Assembly (NCBI GenBank): GCA_019247865.1
Contig: JAFBAJ010000108.1
Location: 1-10,192 of the forward strand
Source: Acidobacteriota bacterium
GTDB taxonomy: Bacteria > Acidobacteriota > Blastocatellia > Pyrinomonadales > Pyrinomonadaceae
DNA: 10,192 nt
Direction of reading: 5' to 3'
Shown here: piece after piece, positions 1-9,892 of the stretch
Numbering within the stretch: position 1 is the stretch's first letter
Layout: each line of letters begins with the position of its first letter
Made by a program: the position numbers and the translations under genes
The notes under the pieces: generated by a model
Told to the model about the DNA's origin: nothing
What the model saw: the letters and a program-made list of their open reading frames with translations, nothing else
Database searches by the model: none

Positions 1-508
1 GGAACATGTGGAGCCACGTCGTGATAATCATCAAGTGCGCGGCCCAGCGGTGCATGTTCCGCAACAGCTTGCCGAACGGCACGTCGTGCTCCAGATAGAG
101 AATGTCGCGGAACGCCTGCACCTTGGTCGGGTGGTAGTAGTACATCAGCAGGACGCCCGTGAAGGTCAGCACAATGAAGAGATAGAACGTGATGCCGCCC
201 ATGCCCCAGGTAAAGTTGTAGCGCACCGCGTCGCGGTTGATCTTGGCCGGATGCAGGTGCAGAAAGACGTTCGAGAGAATCGCGAGGCTGCGATTGCGCG
301 GGTCTGAGCGGTCGTGCGAGACGCGAAAGATAGATTTCCAGAGCTGCGTCTGCTGCGGGTCTTTGTAGGCTTTGGCCTCTTCGACGGCGCGCGCCTTCAA
401 AGCCTCGCCTTCGGTCTTAACCCGCTCGATGAGGCTTCCGCGCGAGCCATTGCCATCGCTCAACTGCTTGACCTCGGTCTCTGTTCCTTCGGGACGTTCC
501 GGCTCCAT
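1..508 (-). CDS. Cytochrome b subunit of a quinol:cytochrome c oxidoreductase (5' part only)
   Basis: Partial gene: 169 N-terminal residues are visible and the rest lies beyond the left edge. Cytochrome b carries the two b hemes and the quinol sites of bc1/b6f-type complexes in the inner membrane. Residues about 1-95 form a charged, probably cytoplasmic extension. The first membrane helix spans about 103-124 and a second begins near 156. His153 and His167 are 14 residues apart in the pattern R-N-M-H-R-W-A-A-H...L-H-M-F, the usual first pair of heme ligands on helix B. The ATG at 508 is preceded by GGGAG about five bases upstream and lies 18 bases after the Rieske stop, so the two are cotranscribed. 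The long soluble N-terminus resembles menaquinol-type cytochrome b proteins of Acidobacteriota as I recall them. Whether this is a short b6-type or a full-length b cannot be seen. Confidence 0.9.
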   Translation of the reverse strand, partial: MEPERPEGTETEVKQLSDGNGSRGSLIERVKTEGEALKARAVEEAKAYKDPQQTQLWKSIFRVSHDRSDPRNRSLAILSNVFLHLHPAKINRDAVRYNFTWGMGGITFYLFIVLTFTGVLLMYYYHPTKVQAFRDILYLEHDVPFGKLLRNMHRWAAHLMIITTWLHMF

Positions 509-526
509 AGTCGCTCCCAACTTTCT

Positions 527-1234
527 TTAAAGCGGAATGTATGCGCCCTCGTTATTGAACTCGCCCGGCGCAGGCACGCCTTTCTCCCACTTGTAGAGGC
601 GGTTGACGTTGACGACGATCTGGCCTTCGGCATCCAGCTCGACGTGCGCGCGATCCATCGGACGCGGCGCAGGCCCCTCGAAGTTGATGGCCTCGCTGTC
701 GTAACCGCTCCCGTGACACGGGCATTTGAACTTGTTCTCGCTCGCCTTCCAGTCGGGCGTGCAGCCGAGATGCGTGCACCGCGCATAGATCACGAAGAGG
801 CGGTCGGGCGATTTATTCACCCAGATGCGGTACTGCTGCTGCCACTTGGTATCGATGCCGGGCGCGTAGTCTCCCGGATAGCCGATGCGAAAGATGCTCG
901 ACGGCTCGAAGATCTCCCGCGGCAGGAAGAAGCGCACGAACATCAGAAAGCAGGTCACGAGAAAGCCGCCGATGATGGACCAGGTGATGATGCGCCGCTG
1001 CTTGTTGACCTCCGGCTCGGCCGCGCTTTCGACGACCGCGCCTTTAGGACGTGGAGCGGCGGCGGCTTTGGGCACGCCTTTCGCTACGCCTGCGGTGGGC
1101 GTCGAAGAGGTCTGAGCCGCGCCCGGCGCGACGCGTGCGGCGGGCGGATTGCTCGCCGGCAGTTCCTGTGTAGACGGAGCGCTGCTGCTGCCCGCGCTCT
1201 CGGCGGATGGATTAGGATTTTCTGGACTCTCCAC
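527..1234 (-). CDS. Rieske [2Fe-2S] iron-sulfur protein of the cytochrome bc complex
   Basis: 235 residues. The Rieske protein takes one electron from quinol at the Qo site and passes it to a c-type cytochrome or equivalent. The cluster motifs are complete: C153-T-H155-L-G-C158 and C171-P-C173-H174-G-S176. C153, H155, C171 and H174 are the expected cluster ligands, and C158/C173 the expected disulfide. One membrane helix lies at about 82-104, so the cluster domain would face the periplasm. Residues 1-80 are Pro/Ala/Ser-rich, low-complexity and probably cytoplasmic, unusually long for this family. The start is GTG at 1234, with a strong GGAGG eight bases upstream. It heads an operon with cytochrome b, 18 bases downstream, the usual Rieske-then-b order. 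Confidence 0.95.
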   Translation of the reverse strand: MESPENPNPSAESAGSSSAPSTQELPASNPPAARVAPGAAQTSSTPTAGVAKGVPKAAAAPRPKGAVVESAAEPEVNKQRRIITWSIIGGFLVTCFLMFVRFFLPREIFEPSSIFRIGYPGDYAPGIDTKWQQQYRIWVNKSPDRLFVIYARCTHLGCTPDWKASENKFKCPCHGSGYDSEAINFEGPAPRPMDRAHVELDAEGQIVVNVNRLYKWEKGVPAPGEFNNEGAYIPL

Positions 1235-1358: not shown

Positions 1359-1515
1359 ACTCTCTGCAACAATTACCCAACATGGTGGTGCTTCTGTATG
1401 AAGAGCGCCGTGCCAGAAATTTTATTATAAAGCGGCTCGGTGCAATATATATACTCCTATTCTCAATTCTGTGGCAAGGTTAAAATGTAAAAGGAATGAG
1501 AGGAGAGATGTTCAG

Positions 1516-1767
1516 TTGAAAGGCAAAGCCAGAGTCACGCTCTACACCAAACCCGGCTGCCATCTCTGCGAAGAGGCCAAACAGCAGATGCACGCCGCCG
1601 CCTGCGCCGAGCTATACGAGCTCGAAGAGGTCAACATCGAGACCGACCCGGAGATTTTCGAGCGCTACAAGCACTCGATCCCGGTCATCGCCATCAACGG
1701 CAGCGAAACCTTCAAATATCGCATCACACCCGCAGACTTTCGCAAGGCCGTGCAGGACGCTCGTTAA
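1516..1767 (+). CDS. Glutaredoxin-like small thiol-redox protein
   Basis: 83 residues with a thioredoxin fold of glutaredoxin size. After a first strand (VTLYTK) comes the redox motif C15-H-L-C18 in the context KPGCHLCEEA. The cis-proline region is S-I-P56-V, followed by a final helix. This fits the glutaredoxin-like family (DUF836 type) of uncharacterised dithiol proteins. A role in disulfide reduction is likely, but the partner is unknown. I chose the TTG at 1516 because AGGAG at 1500-1504 sits at a suitable distance and because the fold begins immediately. An in-frame GTG at 1471 would add 15 basic residues with no family match and a poorer ribosome binding site. It ends one base before the AraC-type regulator, so the pair is probably one transcript. 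Confidence 0.8.
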   Translation: MKGKARVTLYTKPGCHLCEEAKQQMHAAACAELYELEEVNIETDPEIFERYKHSIPVIAINGSETFKYRITPADFRKAVQDAR

Positions 1768-1768
1768 A

Positions 1769-2617
1769 ATGATGGAAATGAGGCGCAATGTGATAGAGGT
1801 CTGGCATCCGCCTGACCTCGGCCAGCTCGAAGCGCGGCGCGGCTTTGGCGTCGTGCGGCCCGTCCCGCGCCATTGCCACGAGGAATACCAGCTCTGCTTC
1901 ATACAGGCCGGAGACGGCGAGCTCTGCTATCGTGGCCGCAGCCTCTCGACGCCGCCGACCAGCCTCTTTATGGTCTATCCCGGAGAGGTGCACGCGAACC
2001 GCCCGTTCGACCAAGACGGATGCAGCTATCGGACGCTCTTCCTGGGGCCGGAGCTGATGCGCCGCGCCGCGACCGAAGCGCATCAGAGGGAGAGAGGGCT
2101 GCCCTTTTTTCCGACGGCGGTGGTCTTCGACGAAGAGCTGATCGGGCGTTACCTGCGTCTGCACCGTGCGCTGGAGCGCCACGCATCGAGCCTTGAGCGG
2201 CAGACCTTGCTCTACAGTTTTCTCAACACGCTCATCCTGCGCTTCGCGGAGCAGCGCCCGTCGCCGCGCCGCCCGGGGACGGGCCAGCATGCGCTCAGGC
2301 GCGCCTATGATTATCTGGCCGAGCATTACGCCGAGAACATCTCGCTCGACCAGCTCGCGGCCGTCGCGCACCTCAGCCTCTTCCATTTCACACGCGTCTT
2401 CGCGGAGCGATACGGGATGCCGCCTCATGCTTTTCAGACACAGCTCCGTGTCTTGCGAGCCAAAGCGCTGCTGCGCGAGGGTCTTGCCATCTCGCAGGTC
2501 GCGCAACAGACGGGCTTCGCAGACCAGAGCCATCTGACACGCCATTTCAAGCGGCTGGTCGCAATCACGCCCGGCCAGTACGCGCAAAACAGCAAGAACA
2601 TTCAAGACAGCATTTGA
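1769..2617 (+). CDS. AraC-family transcriptional regulator with N-terminal cupin domain
   Basis: 282 residues. Residues about 25-95 form the AraC-binding cupin, with H35, H37 and a P-G-E-V-H75 turn typical of the sensor domain. About 175-275 is the C-terminal pair of helix-turn-helix motifs: the first at about 191-212 (ISLDQLAAVAHLS), the second at about 240-262 (ISQVAQQTGF...HF), ending in the conserved ITPGQY. Such proteins bind asymmetric sites and respond to a small ligand; the ligand here is unknown. ATG codons at 1769, 1772 and 1778 are all possible; the first is annotated. It lies one base after the glutaredoxin-like gene and 65 bases before the hydrolase gene, either of which could be its target. 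Confidence 0.92.
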   Translation: MMEMRRNVIEVWHPPDLGQLEARRGFGVVRPVPRHCHEEYQLCFIQAGDGELCYRGRSLSTPPTSLFMVYPGEVHANRPFDQDGCSYRTLFLGPELMRRAATEAHQRERGLPFFPTAVVFDEELIGRYLRLHRALERHASSLERQTLLYSFLNTLILRFAEQRPSPRRPGTGQHALRRAYDYLAEHYAENISLDQLAAVAHLSLFHFTRVFAERYGMPPHAFQTQLRVLRAKALLREGLAISQVAQQTGFADQSHLTRHFKRLVAITPGQYAQNSKNIQDSI

Positions 2618-2632
2618 GCGATTCTCTATAAG
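2604..2632 (+). promoter_or_regulatory. Candidate promoter for the metallo-beta-lactamase-fold gene
   Basis: AAGACA (2604-2609) and TATAAG (2627-2632) are 17 bases apart, matching the consensus at 4/6 and 5/6. The -35 overlaps the last codons of the AraC-type gene. The start would be near 2639, with a leader of about 44 bases that includes the GGGGAG ribosome site. Consensus match only; readthrough from the regulator is an alternative. Confidence 0.3.
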
Positions 2633-2682
2633 CTACGAAGGTTAAATGTCCTAAGACCTTTGAGCCGGGGAGAAAAGCATCC

Positions 2683-3783
2683 ATGCCATCTTTGATGAAG
2701 AGGGTTTTATCCTTCCGCCTTTCGATACTGCTGCTCATCTGTTCGCTGAACGCCGCGCCGCTCTTCGCCGATTCGGTGACGACGCACGAGCGGACGGTGA
2801 CCAAAGTCTCCGAGGGAATCTATGTCATTCGCCATCCGGACGCGCCCGACAGTTTCCCGCAGGGCAACACGACGGTTATCATCGGCGAGCGCGAGGTGCT
2901 GGTGGTAGATTCCTGCCTCCTTCCATCAAGCACGAAGGAGGACATCAAACAGATTCGCCAGTGGACGAACAAGCCCGTGCGCTATCTGGTCAACACGCAC
3001 TGGCACTTCGATCACACGAACGGCAACGCCCTCTACGCTGAGGCGTTTCCGGGGCTCTCTGTCATCGCGCAGGTCGAGACGCAGAAGATGATTCAGAGCT
3101 TCAACCCGACCGCGATCACCAGCTACTCCAACCGCACAGAGCGTTTCAAGCGTTATCTGGAGACGGGCAAGGACGGTGACGGCAATCCGATCTCCGACGC
3201 TTTCAGAAAAGACCTCACCAACAGCCTCAACGGCATCGATTCGGTCGTCGCCGAATTCAAAAATCTCACACCGCTCGCCCCCAACGTGACCTTCGACCAC
3301 GAGCTCTCCGTCAATCTCGGCAATCGTGAAGTGCAGATCAGATTTCTGGGGCGCGGCAACACTGCTGGCGATACCGTGATCTTTCTGCCGAAAGAAAAGA
3401 TAGTCATCGTCGGCGACCTGCTAGACCATCCAGTGCCCTATTTTTACGGAGGCTTCCCGCTGGAACTCGCTGCGACGCTCCAACGCATCGCACAACTCGA
3501 CGCCCAAACCATCATTCCGGGCCACGGCGACATACAGCATGACAAAACATACCTGACGCAGGTCATCGGGCTCGTAGACGAAGTGGTGGCGGTGGTGTTG
3601 AAAGAGGTCAACACGACGCCCGGCCGGAAACTGGAAGAGGTGCAGCAGGCTGTCCCCAAAGCCGTCGATCTGGCCGCGTGGCGACAGAAGTTCGCTGGAA
3701 ACGATCAGGAGAACCGCGACAATTTTGATGCGTCCGTCGAGAGCCTGATCAAAGTCGCGTATAAGCAGGCGATGGTGCGTTAG
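2683..3783 (+). CDS. Exported metallo-beta-lactamase-fold hydrolase
   Basis: 366 residues. A Sec signal peptide is visible: basic start, hydrophobic stretch at about 11-25 and a likely cut after L-F-A29. The mature protein would be periplasmic. The MBL metal motif H106-W-H108-F-D110-H111 is complete, as are D245 (IVGD) and H281 (IPGHGD). The position usually filled by the third-motif histidine (G-H-T-x-G-D) is Asn226 in G-R-G-N-T-A-G-D, so the metal site may differ from the standard dinuclear zinc site. About 90 residues follow H281, more than in a minimal MBL domain. The overall pattern resembles SoxH/quinoprotein-relay-like members rather than antibiotic-degrading enzymes; the substrate cannot be read from sequence. 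ATG 2683 has GGGGAG ten bases upstream; ATG 2698 is a weaker alternative. Its 3' end overlaps the convergent bchH N-half by 35 bases. Confidence 0.88.
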   Translation: MPSLMKRVLSFRLSILLLICSLNAAPLFADSVTTHERTVTKVSEGIYVIRHPDAPDSFPQGNTTVIIGEREVLVVDSCLLPSSTKEDIKQIRQWTNKPVRYLVNTHWHFDHTNGNALYAEAFPGLSVIAQVETQKMIQSFNPTAITSYSNRTERFKRYLETGKDGDGNPISDAFRKDLTNSLNGIDSVVAEFKNLTPLAPNVTFDHELSVNLGNREVQIRFLGRGNTAGDTVIFLPKEKIVIVGDLLDHPVPYFYGGFPLELAATLQRIAQLDAQTIIPGHGDIQHDKTYLTQVIGLVDEVVAVVLKEVNTTPGRKLEEVQQAVPKAVDLAAWRQKFAGNDQENRDNFDASVESLIKVAYKQAMVR

Positions 3784-5920
3784 CGTGAGCGTCGTCCTGA
3801 AAATTCAGAGCCCGCGCCGTCTCTTCGATGACACCGAAAAGCTGTTCGCGCTCTCTTTCATCCGCCGTCTGACGATAAGCCGCCAGCAGTTCTTTCAACG
3901 ACGCGAGGTCTTTGTAAACTCCCGCGCGCTCAATCGGCGGCGTGAGATACGAGACCAGCTCCGCGTAGGAGCGGCGTTTGGCGATGGAGCCTTCCGAGGG
4001 ATTGTTGACGCTGTAGAGATAGAGGTGCGGCAGCTCTCCGATCAAACGGTCCGGCCAGCAGGAGTCAGAGAGGCCGACCTGTTTGCCCGGCATGAACTCC
4101 AGCGCGCCGTGCGTCCCGACATGCACCAACGCGTCCGCTCCGAAAATCTTTTCGAGATAGGTATAGAGCGCCATAAAGCCGTGATGCGGCGCGCCGCTCC
4201 GCGCCATCATGAGGCGCATCGGGTCGCCTTCATAACCGAAGGTCGGCTGCACGCCGATGAAGACGTTGCCGAGCTGTATTCCCTGAACCAGCAACTCGCC
4301 GCCGAAAGAATTTATCTTGCCGGGAGCCGTGCCCCACTCTGCTTCGATCTCTTCGACGAAGGGACAGAGCCTGCGGTACTCGTCCGTCCCCATGCGATAA
4401 GCGATTCGAGCCGTCGCGCCGTACTTCTCTGAATCTCCACCGAGCAGCAGTTCGCGCAAGGCGTCCGCGCTCGACGGAACTTCGACCTCATAACCTTCCG
4501 CTTTCAAGCGTCCCAGAATCTCCCACACGCTCGGAAAGACATCCAGATCGGCGGCCGTCCCGACGTTGCCTTTGTTCGGCGGAAAACAGAAGAGCAGCAG
4601 CGCCAGCTTCAAGGACGCACGCGGCGCTGTCTGCAAGCGATGCCAACGCTTCAACCTGCGCGCGAGACGAAGGCAGCGATCTTCCAGCGGCACGGGCTCC
4701 GCGCCGCCCGCAGGCATCCCGCCGTACACAAAAGCCTCTGTCGCGCCGTCCAATTCAGGAATCGCCACCTGCATCCCGGCCTGCACAGGATTGAGCCCCG
4801 TGCCGGACGCGCGCCAGTCCTCAATCGTCTGCATGTCCAGACTGACGCAGGAGCGGAGCGGCTTCTTCAGCTCTTTCAAGAACTGCGCCGCAGCTTCGCT
4901 GTCATTCATCGCCGGGCCGCCGACAAAGCTAAAGCCCGTCAGCGACACGATCTGGCTGACGCGCGAGGTCTGGTCTTTGAGAAAGAACTTTTCGCACGCC
5001 TCGCGGTTGTCCATGAGGGTCGAGAGGGCTGGCAGAACGGCTAAGCCTTCAGCTTCGATTGCGCGGATCAGGCCGTCGTAATGTCTGCGCGTCCGGCTCA
5101 CGATCTGCGGGCGCATCAGGAGCAGGCCGATGGTCTGCTCCGCTTCGAGCCTCTGCTTCGAGCGCTTCTCGTACCACTTGCGATAAGCCTCGTAAGTCTC
5201 AAACAGCGCGGGCGCGTCCGGATGATAGAGCGCGACCGCGGGCATCGTCTCGAACGGAACGGCCTTGACGTTCGCCAGACGCACGTCCGGCACATACTCT
5301 TTGAGCGCGTGCAGAATCATCGAGCGTATGTTCGCGGGCGTCGGCTGTAAAAAATAGCAGAAGAGCGCCAGATAATTTTTGAGGTCGCGCAATTTTCCAG
5401 CTCCCGGCACGAGCTTCAACAGCGCGGGCATCCGCTCAACCAGCTTGAGATATGTCGTATGGCTGCGCCGCTTCTTTTCCCTGTGCGCGCGCGCCTGCTC
5501 TCCCATCCACGCGGCCACGCTCCGCGCCAGACTTTTGCCGCGCACGGGCTTCCCCGTTTCGCCCTCCGACCTTCCCTTTCCGCCGAACATCTGCCCGAAG
5601 TCAACGCGCCCCAGACGCGTCCGGCGCATCAACTCCGGCATGCAGTTGATGACGATGACCGCGCGATGCCGCGCGCGATATTTTTCCAGCGCAGGCAGCA
5701 GCCGCGCGGCGTTCTCGCCGTCCATCACATGGATCACAAAGACCACATCCGCACGGCCCAGGTCACCTTCGACCTCGCGCCACACCTCCTCGCTCAACGC
5801 CGCGCCGAAGTTGTGCGCAGCGATCCTCAAGCCCAGCTCATACTCTGCATTGAGCTCCCGCTCCGCCTGCCTGAGCGGCGCGAGAAGGCTGGAGCCGATG
5901 TAAAGGACTGTGACGTTCAC
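3749..5920 (-). CDS. bchH: Magnesium chelatase large subunit, N-terminal half (split BchH)
   Basis: 723 residues matching the N-terminal part of BchH/ChlH, the protoporphyrin-binding subunit that inserts Mg2+ with ATP hydrolysis by BchI/D. It opens with the BchH-specific N-terminal domain (DUF3479 type; VTVLYIGSSLLAPL, then VVFVIHVMDGENAA near 59-72). It continues into the CobN/Mg-chelatase domain: FPPNKGNVGTAADLDVFPS (446-464), APHHGFMALYTYLEK (577-591), HVGTHGALEFMPGK (600-613) and NNPSEGSIAKRRSY (639-652). Homology ends near 710, and the last 13 or so residues look non-conserved. A full BchH would continue here for about 580 residues, which are instead encoded just upstream. The start is GTG at 5920, six bases after the C-half stop and in the same frame. 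No strong ribosome site is seen, so translational coupling is likely. The DUF3479-like domain argues against CobN. Confidence 0.9.
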   Translation of the reverse strand: MNVTVLYIGSSLLAPLRQAERELNAEYELGLRIAAHNFGAALSEEVWREVEGDLGRADVVFVIHVMDGENAARLLPALEKYRARHRAVIVINCMPELMRRTRLGRVDFGQMFGGKGRSEGETGKPVRGKSLARSVAAWMGEQARAHREKKRRSHTTYLKLVERMPALLKLVPGAGKLRDLKNYLALFCYFLQPTPANIRSMILHALKEYVPDVRLANVKAVPFETMPAVALYHPDAPALFETYEAYRKWYEKRSKQRLEAEQTIGLLLMRPQIVSRTRRHYDGLIRAIEAEGLAVLPALSTLMDNREACEKFFLKDQTSRVSQIVSLTGFSFVGGPAMNDSEAAAQFLKELKKPLRSCVSLDMQTIEDWRASGTGLNPVQAGMQVAIPELDGATEAFVYGGMPAGGAEPVPLEDRCLRLARRLKRWHRLQTAPRASLKLALLLFCFPPNKGNVGTAADLDVFPSVWEILGRLKAEGYEVEVPSSADALRELLLGGDSEKYGATARIAYRMGTDEYRRLCPFVEEIEAEWGTAPGKINSFGGELLVQGIQLGNVFIGVQPTFGYEGDPMRLMMARSGAPHHGFMALYTYLEKIFGADALVHVGTHGALEFMPGKQVGLSDSCWPDRLIGELPHLYLYSVNNPSEGSIAKRRSYAELVSYLTPPIERAGVYKDLASLKELLAAYRQTADEREREQLFGVIEETARALNFQDDAHANAPSPAYTRL

Positions 5921-5926
5921 TTAATT

Positions 5927-7681
5927 TTATGTGAGCCCTTCGAGCTGATCTTCGAGCCCTGCGAAAGTCTCGCGCAGGCGATTGAGCATCTCGTCATCCA
6001 CCTGCCAGAAGCCGCGCCCTTCGGCCTCTAAGAGCCGGGCGACGAGCGAGCGTGCGGAGTGCGGGTTGAGACTGCGCAGGCGATTCATCATCTCTTCATC
6101 GAGGACGAAGGTCTTCGCCACTTCCGTGTAGACCCAATCGTCAACGGCATCGGCCGTCGCGCTCCAGCCGAAGGTGTTGGCGACGTGGTTCTCGATCTCC
6201 GCGACGCCGCGATAGCCGTGCCTGAGCATCCCTTCGTACCATTTCGGATTGAGCGTCTTGGCGCGCGTCTCCAAACGCACGGTCTCTTCGAGCGAACGCA
6301 CCTTGCCGTCCGGCGAGAGCGTGTCCGAGAGATAGACTGCCGGACGCACCTGTGCGCGCTCCTCCACTGCACGGGTCACGCCGCCGAGGTATTCAAAGTA
6401 ATGGTCAACGTCCGTGATGCCGATCTCGAAGGTGTCTATGTTCTGGTAAGCGGCCTCGACGCGTGACAGCGCGCGATCCATCGCCAGGCGCGCCTCGCGC
6501 CCTTCGATCATGTGTCCCCGCGCGTCACGCCCGTAAGCGAAGCACTTGCGCGTCACGAACAGCTCGCCGAGCGTCGCGGAATTTTCCCACTGCGAGTCCA
6601 TCACCATAAAGTTGACGTTCGTCCCGTAATTGCCCGGCGCGTTGGAGAAGACGCGCGTCGAGGCTTCGTCAAAGGAACAATCGTCTGTGTGCATCTGCTC
6701 CGCGACATGCGAGCGCAGGTAGTTCAGCTCCGCCGGTTCGTCGAGCGCGGCCACCACCCGCACGGCCTTGTCGAGCAGTCCCATCGTCGCGCCGAAGAGG
6801 TCGCGGAAAATCCCGGAGACGGTCATCACGACATCAATGCGCGGGCGTTTCAATTTTTCGAGCGGGATGACTTCGACATCCGTCGCGCGGTTCATCGCGT
6901 CGCGCACCGGACGCACGCCCATCAGCCACAAAGCCTGCGCGACGCCTTCGCCCTGCGTCTTGATATTGTCGAGCCCCCACAGCACGAGCGCCATCGAGCG
7001 CGGCCAGCGTCCATGCTCCGCGCGATGTCTGTCCAGCAAAGTGTTCACGACGCGCTCTGCCCGCGTGAAAGCGATCTCGGACGGCACGGCGTAAGGGTTG
7101 ATGGCGTGCGTGTTGCGCCCGGTCGGAAGAATCGCGGGGTTCTGCACGATGTCCGCGCCCGGCCCGGGCTCTATGTACTCGCCGCGCAGAGCGCGCACGA
7201 GCGCGTCGGCCTCTTGATTGACCTTGAGCTCGGCGTGAATTTTTTCGAGCAGCATGAAGACCGGGCCGGAGTCGTCCGTTGAGACGCGCGCTTCACGCTG
7301 TAACCATTCGCACGCGGCGCGTGTGCCCGCACGCAGGAAAAGCTCGATGGCTTGAGCGACCATTTCATCCACGCGCTCGCGTTCGCGCAAAGCCTGCTCG
7401 TCGTTCCGGCTCGCGTCGAGGAGTTGGGAGTAAGGCTGTAAAGCTAAACCTTCTGCGACGAGTTCCGGGAGCGAGCGTGCGCCTGCTTCGGGCCGGTCGA
7501 AAGAGGCCACCATGCGCAGCATGTCCGCCTGCGCGGGCTCTTCGGGCGCGCGCCCGAAGACGTGCAGGCCGGTCGGAATCAGACGCTGCTCGATCTCCAG
7601 CAACTGCTCTGTCAGCGCCAGCACGCGGCGGTCGCGCTCGACACTTGAGAGGGATGCTGTCTGTGATGTGGGCTGCTTCAC
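5927..7681 (-). CDS. bchH: Magnesium chelatase large subunit, C-terminal half (split BchH)
   Basis: 584 residues matching the C-terminal part of BchH. After about 15 unrecognised residues it enters conserved sequence at L-L-E-I-E-Q-R-L-I-P-T-G-L-H-V (about 27-41). It continues with EPGPGADIVQNPAILPTGRN (171-190), HAINPYAVP and WGLDNIKTQGEGVAQAL (235-251). It finishes with the typical end RLLEAEGRGFWQVDDE and an EGL tail, so the native C-terminus is intact. With the 723-residue ORF it totals 1307 residues, the size of a whole BchH, with no obvious gap or duplication. It is nevertheless transcribed before the N-terminal half. The start is GTG at 7681, five bases after the stop of the BchI-BchD gene, with GGA about 12 bases upstream. 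The two halves presumably associate to form the active subunit. Alternatively this would be an inactive gene, but reading frame and motifs look maintained. Confidence 0.9.
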   Translation of the reverse strand: MKQPTSQTASLSSVERDRRVLALTEQLLEIEQRLIPTGLHVFGRAPEEPAQADMLRMVASFDRPEAGARSLPELVAEGLALQPYSQLLDASRNDEQALRERERVDEMVAQAIELFLRAGTRAACEWLQREARVSTDDSGPVFMLLEKIHAELKVNQEADALVRALRGEYIEPGPGADIVQNPAILPTGRNTHAINPYAVPSEIAFTRAERVVNTLLDRHRAEHGRWPRSMALVLWGLDNIKTQGEGVAQALWLMGVRPVRDAMNRATDVEVIPLEKLKRPRIDVVMTVSGIFRDLFGATMGLLDKAVRVVAALDEPAELNYLRSHVAEQMHTDDCSFDEASTRVFSNAPGNYGTNVNFMVMDSQWENSATLGELFVTRKCFAYGRDARGHMIEGREARLAMDRALSRVEAAYQNIDTFEIGITDVDHYFEYLGGVTRAVEERAQVRPAVYLSDTLSPDGKVRSLEETVRLETRAKTLNPKWYEGMLRHGYRGVAEIENHVANTFGWSATADAVDDWVYTEVAKTFVLDEEMMNRLRSLNPHSARSLVARLLEAEGRGFWQVDDEMLNRLRETFAGLEDQLEGLT

Positions 7682-7686
7682 GATTT

Positions 7687-9720
7687 TTAAGCTTCCAGGA
7701 GATTCGCCGCTTGCAGGCGTTCGTCAATCGCTCCGCCGGATGAGAGATAAAGATACCGCGCGCCGAGGCGCAACGCCAACGCGCGCCCGACGCCGCCGGA
7801 AGTAAAACGATTCTGCGTATCCACCAACACAGTCGAGACGCGCGCCTCGCTGAGCGCCGCGCCCAACTGCTCAAGCTCCTGCACGAGCGCGGCCTGCACA
7901 TCCTGTTTTGTGGCCGGACTATTCAAATGCTGCTCGCGCAGTGCGACGTTGGCCCGCCCGTCCGTGAAGAGGAGCAACACCACGCGCTCTGTGCCCTGAA
8001 GCGCGGCGCGCTTTGCAATCCTGTGTGCACAGGCGAGAGCGGAGGCGAGCGGCGTTGCTCCGCCCATCAGCATTTCGTCGAGCAGCCTGCGCGCGCGCGA
8101 CATGCTCTGCGAAGGAGACAACAACTCTTCTGCCTGCGCGCCGCGAAAGCTGACGAGCGCGACGCGGTCACGTCGCAGGTAAGACTTGTTGAGCAGCCAG
8201 ACGAGCGCTCCCTTCGCCTGCTCGATGCGATTCAAAGCCATGCTGCCCGAGGTGTCAATCGCCAGAATAAAGAGCGTGCCCTGTTTGCGCTTAAACTTTT
8301 TATAGCGCAGGTCTGCGAGCCTGGGACCTGGGACTTGGGACCTGGGACTTTGAGCAATGGCGCGGAGCGTGGCGTCGAGGGCGACCTTTGCTTCGGGCGG
8401 ACGGTTGATGACGGCGCGCGTGTAACGCCCACGCCGCGCGTCGTGCGTAGTGCGGCCGCGGCCGCGGCTTCTGTGTGCAGACTGTTCGGGCGTGCGCGCT
8501 TGAGCGGGTGTTTGAGAGTTCTGCTGAAGCGCGTCTGCCGGAAGCTGTGCGTCCGAGGGCGCGGGCGTGGGGCGTTCCGGTTGATCTTTGTCCGGCCAGT
8601 GCTGTGGTTTGCTCTCCGATTGGGCGCGCGTGCTCCTGGCTTCCGCCTGCGAAAAGTTTTTTTCGAGCGCCTGCGTGATGCGCTGGCCGCCGCCGGTCGG
8701 CTCCAAAGGATCGCGGCGCAGGCGATGGCGCAGGGCGAGTGGTGCGACGCGTTGGACATCCGCTTCGGAGGCTTCACGCCGCCCCTCGAAGGCGGACAGC
8801 GCACGCGCCGCACGTGCAATCGTCAGCTCGCCGCGATGCCCGTCGATCCTGAGTTGCAGACAGAGCGCAGCAATGGCGCGCAGCAGCTCCGTCGAGATGG
8901 TCACCTGCGTTGCGAGCTTGCGCGCGCGCGTGAGCCTGCGCCTGAGGCTCTGCTGCTCTGCTTCAAACTCCGCGCGAAACTTCGCCGGGTCGCGCTCGAA
9001 GGCTTCGCGCAGAGACACTATGCGAACGCGCTGCTCCAGGTCCGTCACGGTCTGCACTTCCACGTAGAGGCCGAAGCGGTCGAGCAGTTGCGGGCGCAAC
9101 TCTCCTTCTTCGGGATTGCCGGAGCCGACGAGGACGAAGCGCGACGGATGCGTGAGCGAGATGCTTTCGCGCTCGACCGTGTTGCGCCCAGTGACCGCGA
9201 CATCGAGCAGGAGGTCTACCAGATGGTCTTCGAGCAGGTTGACTTCGTCCACATAGAGAAAGCCGCGATGTGCGCGCGCCAGCAGCCCCGGCTCAAAAGC
9301 TTTGACGCCCTCCTGTAACGCGCGCTCCAGGTTGATCGTGCCGCAGACGCGGTCTTCGGTCGCGCCGAGCGGAAGGTCTACGACCGGCACAACGGCACGC
9401 GTGCGCGCGAGCTTGCCGTGCGCGGTCAGCGTCGCGTCGCATGCGTCGCAGAGATTTTCCGTCTCGTCCGGGTCGCAGCCGTACGCGCAATCCGCCGTCT
9501 TCCAGATTTGCGGCAGAAGGTCTGCGAGCGCACGCACGGCCGTGGACTTGCCAGTCCCGCGATGTCCCATAATCAACACGCCGCCGATGAGCGGATCGAT
9601 GACATTGAGGAGCAGCGCCAGCTTCATCTCCTCCTGCCCGACGATGGCCGCGAAGGGATAGACCTGCGCGGCGCGGCGCGCGGTCTGGCCCGTTGGCTTT
9701 GTCGGAACGCGTTTTGTCAT
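7687..9720 (-). CDS. Magnesium chelatase ATPase subunit, BchI-BchD type (AAA+ plus VWA)
   Basis: 677 residues that combine the motor and adaptor roles of the chelatase. AAA+ domain, about 20-350: Walker A G52-H-R-G-T-G-K-S-T60, Walker B FLYVDE (154-159) and a sensor/arginine region GSGNPEEGELRPQLLDRFGL (199-218). Four cysteines (C78, C82, C91, C94) form a possible metal-binding insert, as in cobaltochelatase-type ChlID and some BchI proteins. A Pro/Gln/Arg-rich linker spans about 355-445. The VWA domain, about 480-677, has MIDAS residues D489-T-S491-G-S493, T556 and D587. Unlike classical BchD, the Walker A is intact, so this one protein may replace both BchI and BchD. I prefer ATG 9720, where family homology begins (YPFAAIVGQEEMKLAL from 21). 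An in-frame ATG at 9840 adds 40 unmatched residues and lies upstream of the likely promoter. It is first in the operon, with the BchH halves 5 and then 6 bases apart. Confidence 0.92.
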   Translation of the reverse strand: MTKRVPTKPTGQTARRAAQVYPFAAIVGQEEMKLALLLNVIDPLIGGVLIMGHRGTGKSTAVRALADLLPQIWKTADCAYGCDPDETENLCDACDATLTAHGKLARTRAVVPVVDLPLGATEDRVCGTINLERALQEGVKAFEPGLLARAHRGFLYVDEVNLLEDHLVDLLLDVAVTGRNTVERESISLTHPSRFVLVGSGNPEEGELRPQLLDRFGLYVEVQTVTDLEQRVRIVSLREAFERDPAKFRAEFEAEQQSLRRRLTRARKLATQVTISTELLRAIAALCLQLRIDGHRGELTIARAARALSAFEGRREASEADVQRVAPLALRHRLRRDPLEPTGGGQRITQALEKNFSQAEARSTRAQSESKPQHWPDKDQPERPTPAPSDAQLPADALQQNSQTPAQARTPEQSAHRSRGRGRTTHDARRGRYTRAVINRPPEAKVALDATLRAIAQSPRSQVPGPRLADLRYKKFKRKQGTLFILAIDTSGSMALNRIEQAKGALVWLLNKSYLRRDRVALVSFRGAQAEELLSPSQSMSRARRLLDEMLMGGATPLASALACAHRIAKRAALQGTERVVLLLFTDGRANVALREQHLNSPATKQDVQAALVQELEQLGAALSEARVSTVLVDTQNRFTSGGVGRALALRLGARYLYLSSGGAIDERLQAANLLEA
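8320..8347 (-). repeat. Heptanucleotide tandem repeat inside the BchI-BchD coding sequence
   Basis: On the plus strand four consecutive 7-base units are CCTGGGA, CCTGGGA, CTTGGGA and CCTGGGA, with a decayed fifth (CTTTGAG). They encode part of S-P-R-S-Q-V-P-G-P-R (about 458-467), just before the VWA domain. Units of this kind resemble the short tandemly repeated (STRR) heptamers of intergenic regions in cyanobacteria and some other phyla. Here the array sits in frame in a linker that tolerates insertion. Confidence 0.8.
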
Positions 9721-9770
9721 GGCTGTCTGAAAGCGAAAAGGATTTTCAGAGCGGAAATATCGCAGCCCTC

Positions 9771-9800
9771 TTTGTAGCCGAAAATATGGTAGCGGGTCAA
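9771..9800 (-). promoter_or_regulatory. Candidate promoter of the Mg-chelatase operon
   Basis: On the minus strand TTGACC (9800-9795, 5/6 to the -35 consensus) and TACAAA (9776-9771, 4/6 to the -10) are 18 bases apart. Transcription would begin near 9764 and leave about 43 bases before the ATG at 9720. Its position rules against the longer reading from ATG 9840. Inferred from consensus only; regulation by light, oxygen or tetrapyrroles cannot be judged. Confidence 0.45.
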
Positions 9801-9824
9801 TTTGAAAAATCAAACCAAAGAATC

Positions 9825-9892
9825 TCCCGCACAGGCGCAAAGGTGTTGAGAGCTAATTTGTCTTGAATGCTTTTCTTTACGCCTGTGCGGGA
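9825..9892. repeat. Inverted repeat, 18-base arms, 32-base loop
   Basis: The left arm 9825-9842 (TCCCGCACAGGCGCAAAG) and the reverse complement of the right arm 9875-9892 agree at 17 of 18 positions. The loop is 9843-9874. The single mismatch (C versus T) still allows a G-U pair in one RNA orientation. T-rich DNA follows the stem on both strands, so a bidirectional terminator is possible, but the loop is long for one. A repeat-family element or a protein-binding site are alternatives. It lies just upstream of the chelatase promoter. Confidence 0.8.

Follow-up and report, generated by a model that had tools for sequence, protein, structure and literature searches.

A split BchH-type chelatase subunit with reversed gene order in soil Acidobacteria lacking signs of chlorophyll synthesis suggests a two-piece enzyme with a porphyrin role outside photosynthesis

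We analyzed a 10,192-nucleotide stretch of DNA (the window; contig JAFBAJ010000108.1 of assembly GCA_019247865.1) from an Acidobacteriota bacterium of the class Blastocatellia, family Pyrinomonadaceae, and found that it encodes a BchH/ChlH-type chelatase H subunit as two separate open reading frames (ORFs) in reversed order. The C-terminal half, HC (584 amino acids; 5927..7681, minus strand), comes first on the coding strand, and the GTG start codon of the N-terminal half, HN (723 amino acids; 3749..5920, minus strand), follows the HC stop codon after a spacer of 6 bases (5921..5926, minus strand). Five bases upstream of HC lies a ChlI/ChlD-type fusion of AAA+ and VWA domains, the presumed motor (717 amino acids; 7687..9840, minus strand), giving the order ChlI/D fusion, HC, HN. 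The occurrence of split H in soil Acidobacteria without signs of chlorophyll synthesis suggests a two-piece enzyme with a porphyrin job outside photosynthesis. We put at roughly 70% the probability that the halves come together in trans as a class I chelatase of two chains, whose porphyrin substrate would lie outside chlorophyll and de novo vitamin B12 synthesis.

The two ORFs, each with its own stop and a separate start, differ from the single BchH chain of about 1,250 to 1,400 amino acids, and together they amount to one H subunit. Against TIGR02025, the BchH model of 1,271 positions, the 723-residue ORF covered positions 2 to 694 with 730.6 bits and the 584-residue ORF covered positions 700 to 1270 with 676.9 bits. 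The alignment to Synechocystis ChlH (4zhj) divided in the same way, HN matching residues 53 to 749 of the chain and HC residues 758 to 1350. Because these coverages are complementary, there is neither an overlap in homology nor a missing block, and the possibility of two paralogues is ruled out. Each half alone scored below the single-chain cutoff of 829 for TIGR02025; summed, the halves reached about 1,407 bits, near the 1,430 to 1,457 bits of the six full-length BchH proteins that exceeded the cutoff among 97 relatives. HN opens with a DUF3479 (PF11965) head domain (residues 5 to 184; 5369..5908, minus strand; 83.5 bits), and this domain was also annotated for full-length BchH/ChlH homologues among the matches listed. 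By sequence, each half scored about 500 bits to ChlH, compared with 150 and 224 bits to HmuS and 172 to 313 bits to CobN structures. A sequence-only reading of the window had proposed a BchH-type subunit split over these two ORFs, the 584-residue one supplying the C-terminal part and the 723-residue one the N-terminal part, with no evident loss from a full-length protein. The coordinates, the family matches, and the alignment to full-length BchH/ChlH, which had been set beforehand as a test, all bear this out.

The 97 relatives, which include the window's own genome, comprised 36 genomes with split H, 6 with full-length BchH, and 55 with neither. Both halves, whole or partial, were found in 32 of the 36, and one half or a fragment was found in the remaining four (G001, G014, G036, and G051). 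Full-length BchH above the family cutoff was found in none of the split-H genomes. The window's own genome held no further PF02514 protein, but as a metagenome-assembled genome (MAG) that is 74% complete in 855 contigs it may still have an intact copy. The reversed order had also been proposed from the window, together with a search of related genomes for the same adjacent arrangement, and here the agreement was complete: of the 35 distinct loci that carried both halves, all 35 had HC ahead of HN on the same strand. For this count, and for the alignment, neighborhood, and distance counts below, we dropped repeat loci (L122, L123, L135, L136, L137, L145, and L150) and left out L001 to L032, which are short stretches of genomes already counted. 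The estimated gaps between HC and HN spanned −5 to 1583 bases, and at nine of these loci the two genes overlapped by 4 to 5 bases. One locus (L044) sits on a 5.1-Mb chromosome record, OX638355.1, and four half-length homologues lie on contigs over 5 Mb among the best 120 listed per half. One further genome (G012) has HC and HN on separate contigs, which possibly adjoin.

Length-limited protein searches returned 4,461 HC homologues among 8,000 scored and 3,279 HN homologues among 7,995 scored, each at E values up to 1e-50. Among the matches listed, the source names of the halves were "magnesium chelatase subunit H," "cobaltochelatase subunit CobN," or similar. When 396 genomes were drawn evenly from the phylum, half-length matches (E up to 1e-60) were limited to the window's class; two of the named loci, L040 and L044, come from records labelled Bryobacteraceae and Terriglobia. 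The split, reversed H is a lineage trait across several families, which is not visible as such from the window alone.

We also looked for unsplit relatives among 8,000 word-selected candidates of about 884 to 2812 amino acids. The best 120 of 5,759 proteins with E values up to 1e-50 included no fusion, no permuted (C-N) form, and no close relative that was unsplit. Among the matches listed, unsplit BchH/ChlH proteins aligned over most of the query showed up to 45% identity, and one showed 50% over 43% of the query. Two apparent fusions were set aside: at L044, the N-half frame of 1,185 amino acids stays open upstream in a frame other than that of HC, and what reads as a 1,210-amino-acid frame in G054 (L136) consists of ChlI/D and HC in the same frame, separated by one stop codon. 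Our survey of the open-licence PubMed Central (PMC) literature, in the parts of the papers available to it and with subscription papers and preprints outside its scope, yielded no paper in which a BchH, ChlH, or CobN is described as split or reversed. PMC12583661 mentions that hmuS has been mistakenly annotated as two loci.

We located the break in an alignment of 39 N-half rows, 38 C-half rows, and 12 full-length proteins. It falls within a linker of variable length, between an ARALN-like end and a RDRRVLxLYEQLLEIEQRLIPTGLH start. In the same rows, the residues expected at the active site are distributed over both halves. HN Glu608 in THGALEF (4097..4099, minus strand) and Glu643 in NNPSEG (3992..3994, minus strand) are the counterparts of Synechocystis ChlH E625 and E660, and each was a glutamate in all 38 readable N-half rows. 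Solved structures exist for the ChlH variants E625K, E660D, and E660W, and the E660D row was among those aligned with HN. HN His604 in HVGTHG (4109..4111, minus strand), the motif counterpart of HmuS His-538, was a histidine in 38 of the 39 N-half rows, the remaining row being a gap. HC His427 in DVDHYFEYLGG (6401..6403, minus strand), the motif counterpart of HmuS His-1209 (LDHxxEFMGG), was a histidine in 38 of 38 C-half rows and lined up with LSLDHVYEFMGG in L144. The C-half motif itself, TDVDHYFEYLGG, is of the BchH type instead of the HmuS type, which reads LSLDHxxEFMGG and belongs to domain V. The single gap row among the N halves is L149 (G015:C146), whose HN is broken into two frames of 422 and about 330 amino acids, likely by a frameshift or an assembly error.

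In HmuS two histidines hold the central metal site, as described in PMC12583661. In split H the histidines of this type fall one per half; a working site would therefore have to form between the chains. This conserved pair fits the earlier proposal that the subunit, if functional, would need assembly in trans. The checked glutamates and histidines were invariant also in a subclade in which no ATPase was found, except that H600 is changed to N in L147.

Quick maximum-likelihood trees (LG+G4) were built for HN, HC, and their concatenation (64 and 37 rows), with long branches flagged; the outgroup consisted of two CobN-like rows, one of them with the HmuS-type motif, in one set and of one row in the other. 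For HN, HC, and the concatenation alike, all split rows formed one clade inside BchH/ChlH, with a Shimodaira-Hasegawa-like approximate likelihood ratio test (SH-aLRT) value of 100. The sister of this clade differed among trees, lying near cyanobacteria and heliobacteria for HN and near Chloroflexi, Chlorobi, and Chloracidobacterium for HC and the 37-row concatenation, and being left open in the 64-row concatenation. Chloracidobacterium BchH belongs to the same protein family, and its host to the same bacterial class, but it is one chain of about 1,300 amino acids from a chlorophototroph. It was not the nearest relative of split H, and an approximately unbiased (AU) test did not reject a sister grouping (P = 0.317). 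By score, the nearest unsplit group was a separate clade of long H proteins of 1,373 to 1,400 amino acids (P0241, P0242, P0245, P0251, P0256, and kin), one member of which is named as coming from a Chloroflexia bacterium.

Distances for HN and HC correlated (r = 0.86 over 561 pairs, uncorrected for shared ancestry and with L149 left out). In seven pairs, the ratios of nonsynonymous to synonymous change (pN/pS) were 0.08 to 0.31 in both halves, and both halves are under purifying selection. The N-half value for the L043/L044 pair is less clean because its frames include an upstream open stretch. Strong purifying selection was also seen in a pair from the ATPase-free subclade, L035/L146.

The genomes that carry split H gave no sign of the pathway to which BchH belongs in phototrophs. 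BchM, BchL, and a PsaA/B-type (type I) reaction centre were above cutoff in none of the 36, and in eight additional named genomes with split H, for which completeness is not stated, BchL was not above cutoff either. All three were above cutoff in the same 6 of the 97 genomes, namely, the six with full-length BchH. According to PMC8245765 and PMC12816986, the phylum has a single chlorophototrophic genus, Chloracidobacterium. A protein named as Chloracidobacterium (P0333) grouped in the tree with the six full-length BchH proteins, and from this and their phototrophy genes the six genomes probably represent that genus. Synthesis of chlorophyll or bacteriochlorophyll by the split-H hosts is not supported, and neither is the name BchH, which the sequence-only reading gave to the subunit, when taken in its bacteriochlorophyll sense. 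CbiC, a marker of de novo B12 synthesis, turned up in none of the 97 relatives and in 7 of 14 controls. A further H-like protein, about 1,300 amino acids long (721 to 753 bits; for example, L143 at G069:C2:521467-524871), is encoded in the six genomes that have full-length BchH; it gave no match to the BchH head, and CbiC was not found in these genomes.

Ferrochelatase (HemH) was present in 30 of the 36 split-H genomes, so a role for split H as a replacement for ferrochelatase cannot be general. One split-H genome that is 99% complete (G062) gave no ferrochelatase and no HemQ-like match.

ChlI was found in 27 of the 36 split-H genomes (26 above cutoff and G048 slightly under) and in 1 of the 55 with neither form of H, which argues that the ATP motor belongs to the split-H system. 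The ChlI/ChlD fusion in the window scored 499.4 bits against TIGR02030 (cutoff, 466.95), and a ChlI or ChlI/D homologue lay within the fetched stretch at 24 of 35 loci. Three of the split-H genomes without ChlI are G001 (71% complete), G051 (83% complete), and G071, which encodes a D-like protein; six more are taken up below. Conversely, a ChlI-type protein was present at G004:C99:807-1808 in a genome (78% complete) in which no H half was found. The N-half match was interrupted after the head domain in G009, G030, and G033, and also in the ChlI-bearing G020.

When each half was folded alone with AlphaFold, the mean predicted local distance difference test (pLDDT) values were 79.9 for HN and 80.8 for HC. 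Each is predicted to adopt the class I chelatase fold, and the best PDB matches by E value were ChlH for both. HC modelled alone had low confidence at residues 26 to 46 and 155 to 193. The latter segment is among the well-conserved parts of the protein, and such a combination would be expected if this loop docks on HN.

The genes downstream of HN in the window encode a Rieske iron-sulfur protein (527..1234, minus strand) and the start of a b6-like cytochrome b (2..520, minus strand) that continues beyond the window edge. A Rieske gene was present in the fetched stretch at 23 of 35 loci, with cytochrome b alongside in 22 of them, and CcmA/CcmB genes lay upstream in part of the loci. A glutaredoxin-like protein (1471..1767, plus strand) is in relatives a recurrent neighbor facing the 3′ end of HN. 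Between HN and the glutaredoxin and Rieske genes, the window also has two genes (1769 to 3783, plus strand), one for a protein of the metallo-beta-lactamase fold and one for an AraC regulator, neither of which gave a tblastn match at an E value of 1e-15 in the other loci; L043 has a different metallo-beta-lactamase-fold protein, of 725 amino acids, after HN. In the window, 35 bases at the 3′ end of HN are shared with the metallo-beta-lactamase frame, and the final residues of HN look unlike those of its relatives.

How the arrangement arose can be pictured as follows. One ancestral gene that encoded an H subunit of the BchH/ChlH type may have broken in the flexible linker, with the pieces ending up in C-then-N order, and this order would result directly if the gene had been duplicated in tandem and the two copies had then lost opposite ends. 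We compared HC N-terminal extensions of at least 15 residues with seven full-length proteins and the window HN and found one chance match of 6 residues (E = 0.095) and no duplication remnant. The similarity search covered the HC extensions, and the HN tails were measured for length and lay outside it, so the duplication route is put forward tentatively.

At the protein level, HN would provide the head, the neck, and the beginning of the body, with the remaining body coming from HC, the two assembling in trans into a class I H subunit. The porphyrin cavity would then lie at the junction of the halves, with two glutamates and one histidine on HN and the second histidine on HC, and a ChlI/ChlD-type AAA+ motor would drive metal handling in most species. 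It is assembly in trans, catalysis, and use of a porphyrin that we infer, and metal insertion is a more likely direction than removal. The likeness to BchH/ChlH (TIGR02025; 4zhj and 6ysg) extends over the full family length, the DUF3479 head, the glutamates, the tree position, and the adjoining ChlI/D gene; the differences are the two polypeptides, the C-then-N gene order, and hosts without BchM, BchL, or a reaction centre. A fuller version, which we consider less likely than not, is that nonphototrophic Blastocatellia have a hitherto unrecognized pathway for porphyrin metals, in which a BchH that is obligately two-chain, after one splitting and reordering in their ancestry, makes or unmakes a metalloporphyrin other than chlorophyll, ferrochelatase heme, or B12, possibly tied to the Rieske/cytochrome b respiratory complex, with one subclade having come to work free of the motor.

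Several observations weigh against the two-chain chelatase. The genomes G067 and G075, which belong to one genus, carry HN and HC at loci apart from each other, so cotranslation is not required; HC there stays beside ChlI and ChlD (L125 and L126 in G067, L127 and L128 in G075 being the two loci of each), and HN is at the other locus. ChlI/D was not found in six genomes that are 92 to 98% complete and keep the halves (G009, G030, G033, G044, G052, and G058); this is at odds with a chelatase that strictly depends on ATP, and insertion may not be the only activity of H. In the predicted structures, the template modeling score (TM-score) of HN was higher for HmuS (9d26; 0.63) than for ChlH (0.47 to 0.51), and that of HC was similar for ChlH, CobN, and HmuS (0.61 to 0.64). 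Finally, a HemQ-like protein was found in 25 of the 36 split-H genomes and is common in Pyrinomonadaceae. HemQ belongs to the coproporphyrin-dependent heme route, and free protoporphyrin IX may therefore not be an intermediate in those genomes.

The most serious rival is that split H takes the metal out of heme or another metalloporphyrin, in the manner of HmuS, for salvage of iron or porphyrin. HmuS is a class I relative from Bacteroidota that removes iron from heme without ATP (PMC12583661), so a dechelatase has to be taken seriously at least for the ATPase-free subclade, in which both halves are retained and the L035/L146 pair is strongly purified. The closest TM-score of HN, the counterparts of the HmuS metal-site histidines, and the cytochrome b, Rieske, and, in part, CcmA/CcmB genes nearby all point the same way. 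So would the distribution of heme oxygenase, found in 0 of 36 split-H genomes and in 10 of the 55 with neither form of H, but this contrast is weak, given the close kinship among many of the ten and the absence of ferrochelatase as well from 8 of them. On the other side, the sequence of both halves favors BchH/ChlH over HmuS, the C half has the BchH-type motif, the Met-rich insertion of 80 to 120 residues that HmuS has in domain IV was not seen in the alignments, and ChlI is kept in three-quarters of the split-H genomes. HmuS itself is one chain with terminal membrane anchors. Taking these together, we regard metal removal as an unlikely but substantial alternative to the two-chain chelatase. 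An HmuS motif, LSLDHxxEFMGG, does occur in a 1,627-amino-acid CobN-family protein (L144 in G087), and HmuS-like proteins are thus found in the window's class too.

It is improbable that the halves bind or sense a porphyrin without catalysis, for instance, as a carrier for the nearby cytochrome complex. The ATPase-free subclade and the recurrent Rieske/cytochrome b and partly CcmA/CcmB neighbors would suit such a role; the glutamates and histidines that stay invariant even in that subclade, L147 apart, and the strong co-occurrence of ChlI with split H would not.

Still less probable is an inactive relic of a phototrophic ancestor. The class does include one phototrophic genus (PMC8245765 and PMC12816986), and the split-H genomes have neither chlorophyll markers nor a reaction centre and, in one subclade, no ATPase. 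Yet both halves are open in nearly every complete locus read (L149 being broken), the active-site residues are invariant, pN/pS is low, close spacing is often kept, several families retain the halves, and the concatenated and HC trees do not join split H to Chloracidobacterium BchH, a grouping that the AU test nevertheless leaves standing.

A cobaltochelatase for vitamin B12 is marginally less credible again. Several sources name the halves as CobN, the upstream motor matches TIGR02442, "putative cobaltochelatase," below its cutoff, and split H shares with CobN (7c6o and 9uk9) the class I chelatase body fold and the THG motif. Nevertheless, CobN structures score well below ChlH, the DUF3479 head is present, and CbiC was not detected in any of the relatives, against half of the controls. 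An assembly rearrangement or annotation artefact, for which the fragmented state of the window's own MAG might speak, can be dismissed, given the uniform order in all 35 loci from many assemblies, the chromosome record, and the halves on contigs over 5 Mb.

Magnesium chelatase H is usually taken as a marker of chlorophyll biosynthesis, and in the full-length relatives examined it consists of one very large polypeptide. The BchH-family subunit described here is stably two chains, encoded by genes in reversed order, in many genera of soil bacteria without the tested markers of chlorophyll or B12 synthesis. An annotation of bchH or cobN in an Acidobacteriota MAG should accordingly not be equated with phototrophy or with B12 synthesis. 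The arrangement makes it possible to test the assembly of a class I chelatase from halves, the position of the functional seam in H, and a role for a BchH-type subunit outside photosynthesis.

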